Shown piece after piece: positions 10,826-54,736 of a DNA stretch of 64,000 nucleotides. The first letter of the stretch is position 1, and the number at the start of each line of letters is the position of its first letter. The position numbers were made by a program, and so were the translations under genes. Location of the stretch: contig NC_019695.1 in NCBI RefSeq assembly GCF_000317125.1, forward strand, positions 4,762,336-4,826,335, given 5' to 3'. The notes below the pieces were generated by a model. It was not told the DNA's origin, made no database searches, and saw only the letters and a list, made by a program, of their open reading frames with translations. The DNA comes from Chroococcidiopsis thermalis PCC 7203 (GTDB lineage: Bacteria > Cyanobacteriota > Cyanobacteriia > Cyanobacteriales > Chroococcidiopsidaceae).

Positions 10826-10853
10826 GTAGGGGCGCACAGCTGTGCGCCCCTAC
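10826..10853. repeat. 28-bp palindrome, GTAGGGGCGCACAGC family
   Basis: A perfect 28-bp palindrome (GTAGGGGCGCACAG joined to its complement CTGTGCGCCCCTAC). Other copies are at 19460-19487, 19883-19910, 31482-31509 and a half copy at 21511. This one is intergenic. Confidence 0.92.
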
Positions 10854-12607: not shown

Positions 12608-15600
12608 TTAGGAGCGGTCGCCGGAGCGAGTTGTCGAGACCATCTCCGCGATCGCTTTCACCAATTCATCAGGGTCTATAGGTTTAGGCAAATGCAACTG
12701 AAATCCTGCGGTAATTGCTTTTTGTTGGTCGTATTCTCCAGCATAAGCAGTTAGGGCAATTGCAGGAATTGACAGCGATCGAGACTGCATTATATTTTTG
12801 ACTTTTTCTAGGAACATATAACCATCTATCAGCGGCATCCCAATATCGCTCAAAATGATATCCGGCATTTGTTGAGACAAAGCCACTAATGCATCTTCTG
12901 CCGAACTCACGACCGTCGCTTCTGCTCCATGCTGTTGTAACACGCAAGTCACATACTCTCGCATATCTGGATCGTCGTCTACTGCTAGTACGCGCACGCC
13001 TTGCAGTGGTAATTGCTGACTATTGGATGGCGAGTGATGCATCTCCCGATTCCCGACTCCTGACTCCCGACTCCCTTCCAACACAGGTAATGTCACAGTA
13101 AACGTAGCTCCCTGTCCTTCCCCCAGACTCTCTACCCCAACCGTACCACCGTGTAACTCTACCAAGTGACGTACAATCGCCAGTCCTAAACCCAATCCGC
13201 CAAAAGTCCGAGTTGTACTGCTATCGGCTTGGCGAAAGTAATCGAATACATAAGGCAGAAAATCAGGACTAATGCCTTTGCCAGTGTCGGAAACTTGGAT
13301 TTGGACAGATTTTTGGGAGTCGGGAGTGGGAGAGTGGGAGTCGGGATTCGGAAGTTGAAGTGAAATCTCTACCCGTCCGCCAGCAGGAGTAAATTTAACC
13401 GCATTAGATATCAGATTCCATACCACCTGTTGCAATCGTCCTGAGTCCCCTAGAACTAGGGGAGTCGGGAAGTTTTGGATTTTAGATTTTGGATTTTGGA
13501 TTGTAATTGCTGCTTCCTTGTCTCCCTTGTCCCCCTTGTCCCCCTTGTCTTTCCCAGCTCGTCCCTGCTCCCAGCTCGTCCCTGCTCCCTCAAAAACTAA
13601 ATGAATCTGCTTCGCTTCAGCACTTAGTTGCACCGTTTCCATTGCAGCGAGGATCGTGCTGACTAGATTCACAGGAGCAAATTTTAACGCGAGTTTGCCT
13701 CGGAGAATGCGGGAGACATCAAGCAGATCGTCTACGAGTTGGGCTTGGAGTTTAGCATTGCGCTCGATAGTTTCTAAGGCGCGGTTTCTGGCTGCTTCAT
13801 TATATTGACGCGATCGCAACAGTTTTGCCCAACCGAGGATCGGGTTGAGGGGCGATCGCAATTCGTGGGATAGTACGGCTAAAAATTCATCTTTAATCCG
13901 ATTTGCGGATTCTGCTACCTCTCTTGCCACTTGTTCAGCAGCGTACAATCGCGATCGCTCTAAAGCTTGGGCGCATTGCCGTGCAAGTGTCATCATAAAG
14001 GCACGTTCTGCCACATCGAAATCGCGGGGCTGGTTGAAACTTAGCCCTAAAGAACCGATTGTTCGCCCTTCGATTGTCAATGGTAAGCTGGCAATTGCTT
14101 GAGAACCAGAAGCAATATATGTATCTGCGAGACTCGGATAAAGCTGTTGATATTCAGCAGGCGATCGCGCGATGACCATTTCCCCGGTGCGGATTGTATC
14201 GGTGAGGGGAAGGGGTGTCGTTAGCGGAACGCGCCGATAGGGGGCAATTTCTGCTTCCTGGTAGCCAATCGAGCAGACAATCTCTACCGTTTTACCATTT
14301 TTATGCAGCAAACCGATCCAGCCTCTTGTGGCATTGAAGGCAGCTAGTCCTTGATGCAGTAAAATTTCTCTGACTTGCTCTGTCGTCAATGCTTGAGCTA
14401 GAGCCGCAGTCAAATTTTGTAATTGGTAAACTCGCTGGATATTTAACTCTGCAAGTTGACGTGCTGCTTGCTCTTGCTGCAACAGGCGATCGCGCTCTAG
14501 TTCGGCACGTTTGCGATCGGTCATATCGCTGACTAAAGAGACAAACCCCTCTACCTGTCCTCGACTGTCGAACTGAGGAATATAGACTGCTTCGATGTAA
14601 CGCACTCCGCCATCTTGATAGGGAACTTGACTTTCGTATCTAACTGCTCGTCCTGCTAGTGCTTGCTCTACATAAGGGCGAATCTTCTCGTAAGCAGCTT
14701 CGCCTAAGACTTGCCGTATATGCCTGCCACAAATTTCTGTAGCGGGATGACCGAACCATTGTTCGTAGGTCCGATTCACAAAGCGATAGCGCTGGTTAAG
14801 ATCGACATAGGCAATCAGCGCGGGTACGGTGTTGGTAATTAGGCTTAATTCAGCTTCCCGTTGACTCAGTGATGTTTGAGTTTGTTTGAGTTGAGTGATA
14901 TCGACTACAGTTGCACCTACACCCAATGTCTGTCCGTTTGCCAGACAAACGGGATAAAAATTGACCAGAGAATGGCGATAAACTCCTGGGGAATTTGTTT
15001 CACCGCTAAGTTCTTGATTAAGCAGTGGCTCTCCCGTTTGCATCACTTGCCGCAAAACTGGTTCTAGCGTATCGCCCCACGCTGGTAGCACTTCTCGCAC
15101 GCTGCGATGGAAGTGGTCTTTGAGGGGGATGCCATTAATGTCTGCCAAAGCTTGGTTGACGTGGACGTAGCGGAGATCGGTGTCTAAAAAAGCTAAACCG
15201 ACAGGAGAACTAGCTAACCAAGTATCGATCAATGCCAGGGTTGCTTCTTGTCGCTGCATTGCTTGCTTTAATTGGCGATGCAAGCGAGAGTTTTCCATTG
15301 CCAACCCGACGCGCCGTCCCAGTTCCTCAGCTAGGGTTAAATCTTCATTACAGTAATGACGCTGAGAAGTTGTCAGCATCAGCGACAGTACGCCAAACAC
15401 TTCTCTACCTGCAATCAACGGTACGCAAATCGCAGATTTAATCCCTAGTTGCCGAAAAAATTTCAACTGCTCGGCATCTCGCGCCATAGCTACATAGTTG
15501 GCATCTGTGACTTCAGGAATTAATTCCGATCGCCCTGTGTGAAAAACTCTAGTAATTGGGTGTGTTTGGTCGTTTAAATCTAAGGGATAGGTAGCTGTAA

Positions 15601-16204
15601 GTTGACGCACCAAGTCTGCTCGATTGGGGTCTTTGGCTTGAACGGCAGCCAAAGGATTAATCGCCATGTCTGCGGGGAGAATATCGACGGTGCAGAGATC
15701 GGCAAATTTGGGAATAGTCAGTTCTACAACCGATCGCAATGTTGTTTCATAGTCCAGAGAAGATGTGAGTACGGTGTTGGCAAGATCTAAAAAAGCCAAT
15801 CTTTGTTGCATTGCCTCTGCTCGATCTTTGGCTTTTTGTTCGCGCTGTCGATCGATCTCTGCTCTGTGCTTTGCTATGCGTAACTCCTCGCATAGATAGC
15901 TAATCATGACTCCTTGTAAGGCAAACAATCCTAGCCGTAGCAAGTCGGGCAGGTCAACTATAAATGTATAAGTCGGGTAGTGAAAGAAGTAATTGCTGAA
16001 TAGAATCGATAAGACAGTTGCTACTATTCCAGGTTTTAACCCTCCATACCAAGCCGCGATCGCTACTGCCCCATAAAACAGCAAAAACGGAGTTTTTGTC
16101 ATTCCCAGCCAAGAGTCTAGCCCCAACATGAGCGCCAGAGCTAGCATTACGGCAAGGATAGCAACCCCGTAGGAAGCAATCTGGGAGCGGGTAACTTTTG
16201 GCAT
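12608..16204 (-). CDS. Hybrid sensor histidine kinase with repeat insertions
   Basis: 1198 residues. Order: KdpD-like DUF4118 membrane module (about 12-110), GAF (135-300), PAS (325-440), PAS (450-570), GAF (595-755), HisKA with phospho-His in LAVLSHELRSPLNPI (about 775), HATPase_c (N-box NLISNAVKF; DTGKGIS; GLGLGLAIV) and a C-terminal receiver (DIILSDIGMP). Oddity: about 40 residues within the start of the ATPase domain (13461-13592) are encoded by tandem repeats (K-D-K-G-D-K-G-D-K-G-D-K), and two more low-complexity inserts lie at 13316-13350 and 13035-13080. All keep the frame. The signal sensed is unknown. Confidence 0.94.
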   Translation of the reverse strand: MPKVTRSQIASYGVAILAVMLALALMLGLDSWLGMTKTPFLLFYGAVAIAAWYGGLKPGIVATVLSILFSNYFFHYPTYTFIVDLPDLLRLGLFALQGVMISYLCEELRIAKHRAEIDRQREQKAKDRAEAMQQRLAFLDLANTVLTSSLDYETTLRSVVELTIPKFADLCTVDILPADMAINPLAAVQAKDPNRADLVRQLTATYPLDLNDQTHPITRVFHTGRSELIPEVTDANYVAMARDAEQLKFFRQLGIKSAICVPLIAGREVFGVLSLMLTTSQRHYCNEDLTLAEELGRRVGLAMENSRLHRQLKQAMQRQEATLALIDTWLASSPVGLAFLDTDLRYVHVNQALADINGIPLKDHFHRSVREVLPAWGDTLEPVLRQVMQTGEPLLNQELSGETNSPGVYRHSLVNFYPVCLANGQTLGVGATVVDITQLKQTQTSLSQREAELSLITNTVPALIAYVDLNQRYRFVNRTYEQWFGHPATEICGRHIRQVLGEAAYEKIRPYVEQALAGRAVRYESQVPYQDGGVRYIEAVYIPQFDSRGQVEGFVSLVSDMTDRKRAELERDRLLQQEQAARQLAELNIQRVYQLQNLTAALAQALTTEQVREILLHQGLAAFNATRGWIGLLHKNGKTVEIVCSIGYQEAEIAPYRRVPLTTPLPLTDTIRTGEMVIARSPAEYQQLYPSLADTYIASGSQAIASLPLTIEGRTIGSLGLSFNQPRDFDVAERAFMMTLARQCAQALERSRLYAAEQVAREVAESANRIKDEFLAVLSHELRSPLNPILGWAKLLRSRQYNEAARNRALETIERNAKLQAQLVDDLLDVSRILRGKLALKFAPVNLVSTILAAMETVQLSAEAKQIHLVFEGAGTSWEQGRAGKDKGDKGDKGDKEAAITIQNPKSKIQNFPTPLVLGDSGRLQQVVWNLISNAVKFTPAGGRVEISLQLPNPDSHSPTPDSQKSVQIQVSDTGKGISPDFLPYVFDYFRQADSSTTRTFGGLGLGLAIVRHLVELHGGTVGVESLGEGQGATFTVTLPVLEGSRESGVGNREMHHSPSNSQQLPLQGVRVLAVDDDPDMREYVTCVLQQHGAEATVVSSAEDALVALSQQMPDIILSDIGMPLIDGYMFLEKVKNIMQSRSLSIPAIALTAYAGEYDQQKAITAGFQLHLPKPIDPDELVKAIAEMVSTTRSGDRS
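13461..13592. repeat. Tandem repeats inside the histidine kinase gene
   Basis: Plus-strand TCCCTTGTCCCCCTTGTCCC (9-mer family of 866-982), a GATTTTGGATT 7-mer run and CCCAGCTCGTCCCTGCTCCC are concatenated within the coding sequence, in frame, between the first strand of the ATPase domain and the N-box. Confidence 0.85.
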
Positions 16205-26796: not shown

Positions 26797-28815
26797 CTAC
26801 TCCCTACTCCCTTGTCTCACAGGAAGAGTAAAAGTAACTTTCGTGCCTTGTCCTAAACCCGCACTCTCTAGACAGATTTTTCCTCCCATCAGTTCTACTA
26901 AACGCTGACAGACGGTTAAGCCTAATCCCGTACCTCCATAGCGCCGTTTCACCGAACCGTCTGCTTGGACAAAAGGCTCAAATAATACTGCTGCTTGGCT
27001 TGGTTCGATCCCAATTCCAGTATCAGTTACCGAAATTTCAATTGCTGGTTCGTCAGTTTTGGTAATTGCTCGAATGCAAACTTGTCCGGTTTCAGTAAAT
27101 TTAAAAGCGTTAGCCAAGAGGTTAGTTAGGACTTGTCGCAGTCGGAATTTATCGGCATAAATCCGCTCCACTTGACAATCAATGCTTAAAGGAATACCCT
27201 TGCAATTGCTCTCAATTTGAAATAAACGTTGTAGTTCTGTCAATAGAGGCATTAGCTCAAATTCTTCCCAATGCATCACCAATCTTCCGGCTTCAATTTT
27301 TGCCAGGTCGAGAATATCGTTAATTAAGGTGACGAGATTTTCTGCTGATTGATAGGCAATTTGAATGTATTCTTTTAACTCTACTTCGTTGTAGTAAAGT
27401 CCTTCTTTGAGCAATTTCAAATAATTAAGCGTGGCTGCTAAAGGCGTACGTAATTCATGACTGGTGGAGGAGAGAAAATCTGATTTGAGGCGATTGGCTT
27501 CTTCTGCCAGGGTGCGGGCAGTCTTTAGTTCTTGATTACGTCTTTCTAACAATTGCCTCTGTTGTCGTTCGTATTCATGTAATCGGTGCTGCATGACGGC
27601 AAGTGAGAGATGATTGGCTAGGGCTTGGACTAATTCTATTTCCGAACTCGTCCATTCTTTGCTTTGTCCTCGTTTTAATTCTCGCCAAGCCTCAAAAGAA
27701 TGCCTCACTCTGGAAATACGTTCGTCAGGATCGAATCTTCCCGCCCAGGTAATATCAGTATCGATCGCATCGCGGAAAATGGTCAGGCAACCCAAGGTTT
27801 CACTACCATAATGCAAGGGCATAACAAATAGGCTGCGGATATTCGTAGTTTGAAAGGCAGGAGCAACTTCTAGTAACTCCGGTGCTTGATAAAGATTGGC
27901 GATCGCCACATACCCGTGCTGGGGGTTTCTACCAACACCAGCCATCAACTGTTGCCAAAATGGAGCGTTCTCCAACATCCCTTGAGGTTGGGCTTTATCG
28001 GTATAAATTTCTGTGATTTGTGCTTGCCCTGTAGGACAAAGATATAGTCTGCCACCAGAACCATCAACGCTGTTGACAATACTTTCAAGAGCAATTTGTA
28101 AAATTGTTTGAATTGAGTGGGGAGAGTGAAGCAGAGTTGAAATTTTGTTGATTAATTCTTGGCGAATAGCTCTTTCGCGTGCTTGCGTCAATAGTTGAGA
28201 TTGAGAAATTGCGATCGCGAGGTGTTCTACCACGAGTCGCACCACGTCTAATTGTTCCTGACGAAAAGTTTTTGGTTGCGCGTGGTGACAAGCCAGCAGT
28301 CCCCACAACTGGCAATCGTGAAGAATTGGGATGACTAGGGAAGACTGCACCCCCATAGCTGTGAGATATTCGACGTGACAAGGATCGACGGGGCGTTGGA
28401 GAATTTCTGTAACGGTTCTTTGCTGAACTTCCTCTAACGTCAAATCTCCTGTAGTTTGGGGAGATTTTAAATAGCTGAGGCTAATCTGTTGTTGGGGAAC
28501 GTCCACAATCGATCGCGCCCCAATTTTGACAAACATCTCCCGTGCGTGGGCAGGAATATCATCTGCGGGAAAGTGCAACCCTAGCAAAGATGGTAAACGC
28601 TTTGCCGCGATCGCTTCAGCAATCACTTGTCCCGTTCCATCAGGATGAAATTTATAAACTTTGACTCTATCTATTTGTAAAAATGCCCGAATCTCCTGCA
28701 CTGCAACAGAGAGAATCTGCTGTAGTTCCAAAGATTGATGGATGCGATTCGTAATCCGATTTAACAGAGAATTTCGGTTCAGTCCCGCTCGATTTGGATG
28801 TTTTTTATGACGCAT
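26797..28815 (-). CDS. Phytochrome-like GAF-GAF histidine kinase
   Basis: 672 residues from ATG 28815; the longer open frame is read through repeats. Phytochrome-type GAF (about 20-190) has FPADDIPAHAR (82-92) and PCHVEYLTAMGVQSS, with Cys146-His147 at the position that binds bilins in Cph1 and CBCR GAFs. A second GAF follows (about 215-430), then HisKA (LSSTSHELRTPLAA), N-box NLLANAFKF and DTGIGIE, G-G-T-G-L-G-L. No PHY domain is present. It sits between two single-domain response regulators on the same strand, so a three-gene light or redox signalling unit is plausible. Confidence 0.9.
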   Translation of the reverse strand: MRHKKHPNRAGLNRNSLLNRITNRIHQSLELQQILSVAVQEIRAFLQIDRVKVYKFHPDGTGQVIAEAIAAKRLPSLLGLHFPADDIPAHAREMFVKIGARSIVDVPQQQISLSYLKSPQTTGDLTLEEVQQRTVTEILQRPVDPCHVEYLTAMGVQSSLVIPILHDCQLWGLLACHHAQPKTFRQEQLDVVRLVVEHLAIAISQSQLLTQARERAIRQELINKISTLLHSPHSIQTILQIALESIVNSVDGSGGRLYLCPTGQAQITEIYTDKAQPQGMLENAPFWQQLMAGVGRNPQHGYVAIANLYQAPELLEVAPAFQTTNIRSLFVMPLHYGSETLGCLTIFRDAIDTDITWAGRFDPDERISRVRHSFEAWRELKRGQSKEWTSSEIELVQALANHLSLAVMQHRLHEYERQQRQLLERRNQELKTARTLAEEANRLKSDFLSSTSHELRTPLAATLNYLKLLKEGLYYNEVELKEYIQIAYQSAENLVTLINDILDLAKIEAGRLVMHWEEFELMPLLTELQRLFQIESNCKGIPLSIDCQVERIYADKFRLRQVLTNLLANAFKFTETGQVCIRAITKTDEPAIEISVTDTGIGIEPSQAAVLFEPFVQADGSVKRRYGGTGLGLTVCQRLVELMGGKICLESAGLGQGTKVTFTLPVRQGSRE

Positions 28816-28850
28816 ATTTTTGAAAGTCGGGAGTCGAGAGGATAAGAGGA

Positions 28851-28885
28851 TAAGGGGGACAAGGAAGACAAGGGGGACAAGGGAG
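28851..28885. repeat. Tandem GGGGGACAA units
   Basis: Three to four copies of the GACAAGGG family in the leader of the phytochrome-like kinase gene. Confidence 0.75.
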
Positions 28886-28978
28886 AGCGCTCTCGAAAAT
28901 TCTTTGAGTGTCCTCCCGCATTTCCCATACTTCCAACACTTCCCACACCCTTTCTTCACTGGTCACTCTCTCAGCCCC

Positions 28979-54603: not shown

Positions 54604-54736
54604 GTCATTGGTCACTGGTCACTGGTCACTGGTCACTGGTCACTGGTCACTGGTCACTGGTCACTGGTCACTGGTCACTGGTCGCTGGTCACTGGTCACT
54701 GGTCACTGGTCACTGGTCGCTGGTCGCTGGTCACTG
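54604..54736. repeat. Tandem 7-mer array (TGGTCAC)n, about 19 copies
   Basis: Head-to-tail TGGTCAC with a few CTGGTCG variants, continuing ATTGGTCATTAGTCATT. The array runs into the end of the methyltransferase gene at 54703, supplying its last 10 residues and its stop codon. Period seven and no spacers exclude a CRISPR array. Confidence 0.95.

Follow-up and report, generated by a model that had tools for sequence, protein, structure and literature searches.

A hybrid histidine kinase with repeat-derived inserts

On its minus strand, the 64,000-nucleotide stretch of DNA analysed here (the window) encodes a hybrid sensor histidine kinase whose C-terminal part contains three inserts built of short tandem repeats. 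The gene, its C-terminal domains, the inserts and the arrays that compose insert 1 are the following.

12608-16204, minus strand: hybrid sensor histidine kinase, 1198 aa, with the domain order DUF4118-GAF-PAS-PAS-GAF-HisKA-HATPase_c-receiver, including two PAS stretches (ORF call and Pfam domains)
13706-13894, minus strand: HisKA domain, aa 771-833 (Pfam)
13463-13579, minus strand: insert 1, 39 residues, in a beta-hairpin turn (turn 1) before the N box
13552-13589, minus strand: 17-mer TCCCAGCTCGTCCCTGC in insert 1, 2.2 copies (TRF)
13516-13549, minus strand: 9-mer array CCTTGTCCC in insert 1, sense GACAAGGGG, peptide DKG, 3.8 copies (TRF)
13473-13502, minus strand: TTTTGGA heptamer array in insert 1, sense AAAATCC, peptide IQNPKSK (TRF)
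13082-13450, minus strand: HATPase_c domain as matched by Pfam, aa 919-1041
13307-13351, minus strand: insert 2, 15 residues, PNPDSHSPTPDSQKS, in a beta-hairpin turn (turn 2) before the G1 box
13043-13075, minus strand: insert 3, SRESGVGNRE, GGGAGTC-type heptamers, in the linker between ATPase domain and receiver (TRF 7-mer)
12650-12991, minus strand: receiver domain, aa 1072-1185 (Pfam)

The protein has a HisKA domain with an H box, an HATPase_c domain with N, G1 and G2 boxes, and a receiver, the parts by which a hybrid histidine kinase is recognized. Insert 1 lies between the flanks VFEGAG and PLVLGDS and is composed of heptamer, 9-mer and 17-mer arrays, the last of which (TCCCAGCTCGTCCCTGC) overlaps a CAGGGAG-type stretch at 13579-13590; insert 2 (PNPDSHSPTPDSQKS) consists of ACTCCCG-type heptamers between VEISLQL and VQIQVSD, and TRF calls a 7-mer array there at 13315-13355. 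As the original prediction held from the letters of the window alone, repeats are found both within a domain (the two turns of the ATPase domain) and between domains (the linker before the receiver); TRF and translation place all three inserts where they had been described, none of them breaks the reading frame, and the kinase retains its N, G1 and G2 motifs. The prediction also stated that the 9-mer period makes expansion of the arrays frame-neutral, which does not hold in general: most units are 7-mers or 17-mers, so that a change of one 7-mer copy shifts the frame and only a minority of the insert is neutral per copy. The observed inserts preserve the frame in net length, and in-gene arrays sit in a stop-free sense.

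STRRs (short tandemly repeated repetitive sequences) of cyanobacteria are tandem units of about 7 bp in several copies, dispersed in the genome and lying mainly outside genes. The inserts are made of several copies of such units, together with which the 9-mer and the 17-mer also occur, and the own genome is rich in further, dispersed copies: in 1.48 Mb of it, words of the 9-mer, GGGAGTC and CAGGGAG families number dozens to hundreds, and the insert arrays are therefore not the product of chance. The TTTTGGA heptamer is rarer (3 places in the 1.48-Mb sample), so that the AAAATCC array of insert 1 represents a family rare in the genome.

Residues 759-1046 were modelled with AlphaFold2 (12 sequences, mean pLDDT 77.9), and both hairpin inserts come to lie between strands. 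Insert 1 falls in model segment 122-154, with pLDDT below 50, flanked by strands 118-121 and 158-161; the strands that flank insert 2 are 186-192 and 208-215. The rest of the modelled core is mostly confident. The best match among solved folds is HK853 (6rh0; TM-score by target 0.88). In a sequence search, one chain of entry 7p8e matches the sequence on either side of turn 2 but leaves a long stretch in the middle unaligned (residues 173 to 252 of the chain, 190 to 206 of the query), a hint that turn 2 may take long insertions in other proteins too.

Elsewhere in the window, 19 tandem copies of GTCACTG with the top TRF score of the window lie outside called genes at 54604-54736, and a second kinase ORF (26797-28959, minus strand) has a 9-mer array at 28852-28883 near its start, where the true start codon may be downstream. 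Repeats of a different kind are also seen. The 12-mers of a palindrome at 10826-10853, GTAGGGGCGCACAGCTGTGCGCCCCTAC, are among the commonest in the sample (GTGCGCCCCTAC, 73 counts), which marks it as a dispersed non-tandem repeat; the 12-mers of another dispersed set of palindromic words, around ACGTTACATGTAACG, reach about 64-79 counts (sample L056-L130).

Variation among congeners

The own genome (6,689,401 bp) was compared with those of two congeners, G002 and G001, in which full-length orthologues of the window kinase are 93% and 92% identical to it, respectively. For proteins of about 1,200 residues, the three-way alignment has 1,188 ungapped columns, 1,051 of them invariant, and its internal gaps fall only at turns 1 and 2. 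Turn 1 measures 39, 35 and 20 residues in the own genome, G002 and G001; turn 2 measures 15, 15 and 37 residues, and is identical in the own genome and G002. The 9-mer, with 3.8 copies in the own genome, forms no array in G002 and amounts to about one unit in G001, and the contents of the turns are mostly rewritten between orthologues. Neither a fixed repeat number nor identical inserts in distant orthologues, the outcomes that the original prediction had named as speaking against it, were found: number and content differ already among these three congeners, and distant relatives mostly carry other sequence at the turns.

Away from the gaps, dN/dS of the window kinase is 0.129-0.167 at a dS of 0.225-0.289, and that of three other kinases is 0.11-0.24. 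Judging from these substitution rates, the window kinase is under purifying selection outside its turns, and dN/dS values of 0.13-0.17 suggest that it is functional.

Four further sets of kinases (K2-K5) were aligned, K3-K5 having been chosen because they bear repeats in the own genome; K2 had another origin and, with 377 invariant columns among 679 ungapped ones, is the more divergent set, so that its orthology is less sure. All four sets read through the turns in frame. Turns 1 and 2 are gapped in K2, K3 and K4. The linker before the receiver is gapped in K3, a set in which one G001 protein is counted twice, and by a single column in K2; K2 has one further gap in its N-terminal part, and K5 has one at another stretch that bears repeats. 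The K5 proteins differ at the N terminus, and their G002 match is in two pieces.

Placement of repeats in the kinases of the genome

The sample of the own genome comprised 1,483,030 bp, drawn from 75 stretches chosen around HATPase genes together with the window and 30 search loci; its genes are crude longest-ORF calls. STRRs were masked with 460 12-mers of period 7 or 9 and at least 12 copies, both strands being counted; the mask is strict and covers only part of the visible inserts, and it also has a 12-bp match, probably by chance, at 12795-12806 in the receiver-coding part of the window kinase. STRRs cover 7.9% of intergenic and 0.82% of coding bases, and 407 of the 1,247 arrays in the sample are coding; they thus lie mainly outside genes, and the kinase inserts belong to the coding minority. 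At least 24 STRR bases are found in 118 of 1,115 crude genes. STRR-bearing genes make up 19 of 55 kinases and 60 of 1,060 other genes, proportions that are not those of a random genome sample because the DNA was chosen around HATPase genes.

Repeats are very unevenly placed within the 55 kinases that could be parsed by their motifs. Repeat-derived residues account for 356 of 1,961 (18.2%) in the region from N box to G1 box, 114 of 4,892 from H box to N box, and 236 of 31,497 (0.75%) in the rest of the protein; there are none in the boxes (1,738 residues), the ATP lid (1,293) or the tail (1,540). The motif parser caught only these 55 HATPase genes, and to avoid this loss a 239-position HisKA-HATPase profile, built on 21 insert-free kinases, was used, which matched 117 proteins. 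Of the inserts of at least 5 residues in the 117 proteins, 55 fall in the two turns (model positions 118-119 and 156-162) and 25 at other positions; STRRs (at least 4 masked residues) are borne by 17 of the 55 and by 0 of the 25 (p 0.0009). The 17 are distributed over 14 genes, 4 at turn 1 and 13 at turn 2; a uniform null gives 6e-25 for 17 of 17 falling in 9 of 239 positions, a value to be read in the light of the shared ancestry of paralogues, whose events are not independent. The remaining 38 of the 55 turn inserts are without STRRs, and thus the two turns attract inserts generally, repeat or not.

Within the 117 profile spans, 403 of 521 masked residues lie in the tallied inserts. Among the other 118, the examined stretches of at least 4 residues are mostly at turn edges or between two ATPase copies of one protein, and one 4-residue stretch is in the lid region of a CheA-type-looking protein (gene at C1:4755829); the absence of repeats from the ATP lid accordingly applies to inserts and to the 55 motif-parsed kinases rather than to every masked word. 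The kinase gene at C1:4826925, with repeats by turn 2, is absent from the tally.

Reading sense and composites

In-gene heptamers with a stop codon in one sense run almost exclusively in the opposite sense (AATTACC 19:0, AACTACC 16:0, AAAAGTC 10:1); ACTAGCC, which contains a stop whichever way it is read, nevertheless forms 5 in-gene arrays. Nine in-gene families are stop-free in both senses; among these the polar sense, with peptides that include DKG, GQG, SREQGAG and NNQQPTT, prevails by 126 to 3 (126 of 129 arrays), the polar labels having been assigned from the peptides after the orientation table was seen. Outside this count are ACTCCCG (11:6) and AATTCCG (16:2), of which both senses are stop-free and fairly polar, and AGCTCCCTC, at 1:8, stands against it or outside it. 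Arrays without a stop-constrained neighbour within 200 bp are in the polar sense at 24 of 26 loci (p 1e-5). The relative orientation of adjacent blocks is the same in 42 of 42 in-gene pairs and in 53 of 64 intergenic pairs; since the same block order is found between genes, composites have a preferred order even there, and this order accounts for part of the orientation bias, not for that of isolated arrays. These ratios suggest that in-gene repeats are filtered by peptide chemistry besides stop codons, and by such a filter repeat litter would become a source of probably disordered protein sequence.

A stop codon inside a loop was seen in a related kinase on a 0.37-Mb contig (L005, G000:C3:364019-365317), where an in-frame TAA in the turn-2 loop divides the gene into two ORFs. 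It sits in a stretch resembling degenerate heptamers, and is possibly a loop insertion failing the stop filter.

The three genomes were searched with the 107-bp insert that occupies turn 2 in the G001 orthologue. Itself excluded, at least 10 further places among the matches listed align with 94 or more of the 107 bases, at identities of 71-83%. Dispersed copies of one element, together with terminal inverted repeats or a target-site duplication, characterise MITEs and other small dispersed repeats, but simple repeats in preferred order could align over much of that length. Each species has one match that falls in turn 1 of kinase K3: those at G001:C3:206648-206749 and G002:C1:5826856-5826958 were both checked against the turn borders, and that of the own genome (G000:C1:6034158-6034235, 79 query bases) was placed by its coordinates. 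Such diverged matches show that ordered repeat blocks recur at unrelated places, and exchange between arrays or transposition would be the route.

Distant relatives

From other genomes 29 loci were collected, of which 26 could be parsed; they were found by similarity to the window core, which may slightly favour long loops. Turn 1 is long in all 26, with mostly different sequence, and the distance from H box to N box (from cut points) is at least 121 residues, as against a median of 108 in 44 own kinases. Turn 2 has 9 residues between cut points in 7 of the 26 and up to 36 in others. A turn 1 with at least 12 matching bases at a tandem period is found in only 2 of 26. Long unrelated sequence at the turns means that tolerance by the protein extends beyond repeats; and because turn 1 is uniformly long, mostly without a clear array, this subfamily may require such a length there and not simply put up with it.

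The AAAATCC heptamer has a distribution of its own. Among 28 loci scored, two AAAATCC units fit 14 of 14 bases at turn 1 in five genomes (own, G162, G227, G253 and G264), and another four fit at 12-13 of the 14. One rotation of this 14-mer is found at about ten places in the own genome, three of which are kinase turns: turn 1 of the window kinase, and turn 2 of genes C1:2924568 and C1:3617047. In G227 and G253 one rotation is a single genome-wide copy each, in kinase turn 1; the second rotation has two other copies in G227, none in G253, and 56 in G213, of the same genus. These counts hint at an ancient domesticated AAAATCC array at turn 1, and vertical persistence and re-invasion fit alike.

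Two side observations concern single genomes. In G253 and G227 the rare 14-base AAAATCC word sits in the turn-1 loop as if in a refuge for a repeat lost elsewhere. A kinase of Hassallia byssoidea (L010:2971-3879) has a very large repeat-built turn-2 insert, partly in the less polar sense, in which KDKGDKGDKG is followed by SPLSPPSPL-type repeats.

Discussion

We hypothesize, with a probability of roughly three in four, that the inserts are tolerated genomic filler, renewed by slippage and exchange and filtered by reading frame, stop codons and peptide polarity. STRRs (7-mers and the G-rich 9-mer, often joined in composites of preferred order) would have entered turns able to carry disordered chain; the N-box hairpin, the G1-box hairpin and the receiver linker would be open to them, being clear of the catalytic boxes and of the ATP lid. 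The loop would then change fast: slippage would alter its length and exchange with similar arrays elsewhere its content, with selection at the protein level keeping copies in frame, stop-free and polar. The chain would be disordered in the cell, and its variation would be largely neutral. Two things speak against this account: turn 1 is long in every parsed relative, and AAAATCC is found there in several families, more often than would be expected of purely neutral turnover.

The original prediction went further in proposing that length variation could tune the sensor, and the alternative that fares best is of this kind: loop length and content would set kinase output or the tether between kinase and receiver, and slippage would supply selectable variants. 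Insert lengths do vary between species, and turn 1 is long in 26 of 26 parsed relatives regardless of its sequence. However, content is largely unrelated between orthologues at a dS of 0.22-0.29, 7 of 26 relatives have only a minimal turn 2 of 9 residues between cut points, and repeats are far denser between genes than within them (7.9% vs 0.8% of bases). Nothing in the analysis points to an effect on activity, and the unrelated insert contents and low dN/dS of the orthologues fit tolerated turnover at least equally well; we regard tuning as unlikely. If turn 1 is selected to be long, the question whether sensors can be retuned by turnover of repeats could be put to it directly. A wider proposal, doubtful on present evidence, would make the repeat composites a lineage-wide generator of disordered chain at two fixed kinase hairpins, with the length of turn 1 selected and its sequence renewed, and hence a fast-evolving, adjustable tether in repeat-rich cyanobacteria.

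A mobile element that recognises DNA target sites in the stretches coding for the hairpins, instead of tolerance by the protein, could in principle explain why the same two positions are occupied in many paralogues and why a composite is common to the loops of two kinases. That seems improbable, as relatives mostly without clear arrays carry long unrelated sequence at those same turns and 38 of 55 own-genome turn inserts have no STRR; together these point to protein tolerance.

Phase variation, in which the arrays would switch the kinase on and off by frameshift within a population, gains something from the frameshift that a single-copy 7-mer change entails and from one other own-genome kinase, whose turn-2 loop contains a stop codon. 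A phase-variable gene is known by alleles that, in close relatives, are out of frame at the repeat. None was seen among the three orthologues of the window kinase, which are in frame through the turns like the four other aligned sets; the arrays of the window kinase are short and imperfect, and the split of the G002 K5 orthologue is in its N-terminal part, away from the turns. We therefore consider phase variation very improbable. Repeats are hard to assemble, yet an artefact of assembly or ORF calling is scarcely credible when flanking motifs share one frame in three genomes and the pattern recurs in 14 genes.

The first observation made in the window is confirmed as real and proves broader than noted at the time, and the interpretation given to it is, as a whole, partly supported. 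In the sampled genome, natural insertions map where a conserved signalling enzyme takes foreign chain: in two turns and a linker, not in the catalytic boxes.

Comparison with known repeats

Among the papers listed from the open-licence literature, judged by title and start of abstract, none is about STRRs in kinase hairpins or the polarity bias. Vioque reportedly described, in 1997, STRRs of cyanobacteria, including some inside the RNase P RNA gene. Like those, the arrays in the kinase are short, tandem and dispersed, and lie inside a functional gene; unlike those, they are translated, occupy two defined turns of a fold, and have a sense bias towards polar peptides.

Cyanobacterial heptamer repeats, their intragenic share and the stop-codon argument are already in print (PMC4692102, PMC4679880). 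For arrays of the TAACTGA heptamer, which the text of PMC4679880 describes as mostly intergenic in the genome studied, stop codons were argued to restrict the orientation within genes; here, in contrast, many families are found in genes, and the polarity bias exists even where both senses are stop-free. The GGGGA(C/T)T repeats of Nostoc sp. PCC 7120 are described in PMC4692102, the main text of which does not contain the word 'kinase', as G-rich heptamers that are 68% intergenic, variable in copy number and under-represented on the coding strand, whereas the in-gene G-rich 9-mers studied here are nearly always in the sense orientation. Rickettsia palindromic elements, in the account of a review (PMC10969869), are likewise small repeats inserted in frame in unrelated protein genes; they are palindromic, about 150 bp long and encode a conserved peptide, whereas the kinase inserts are tandem arrays and composites with variable peptides.
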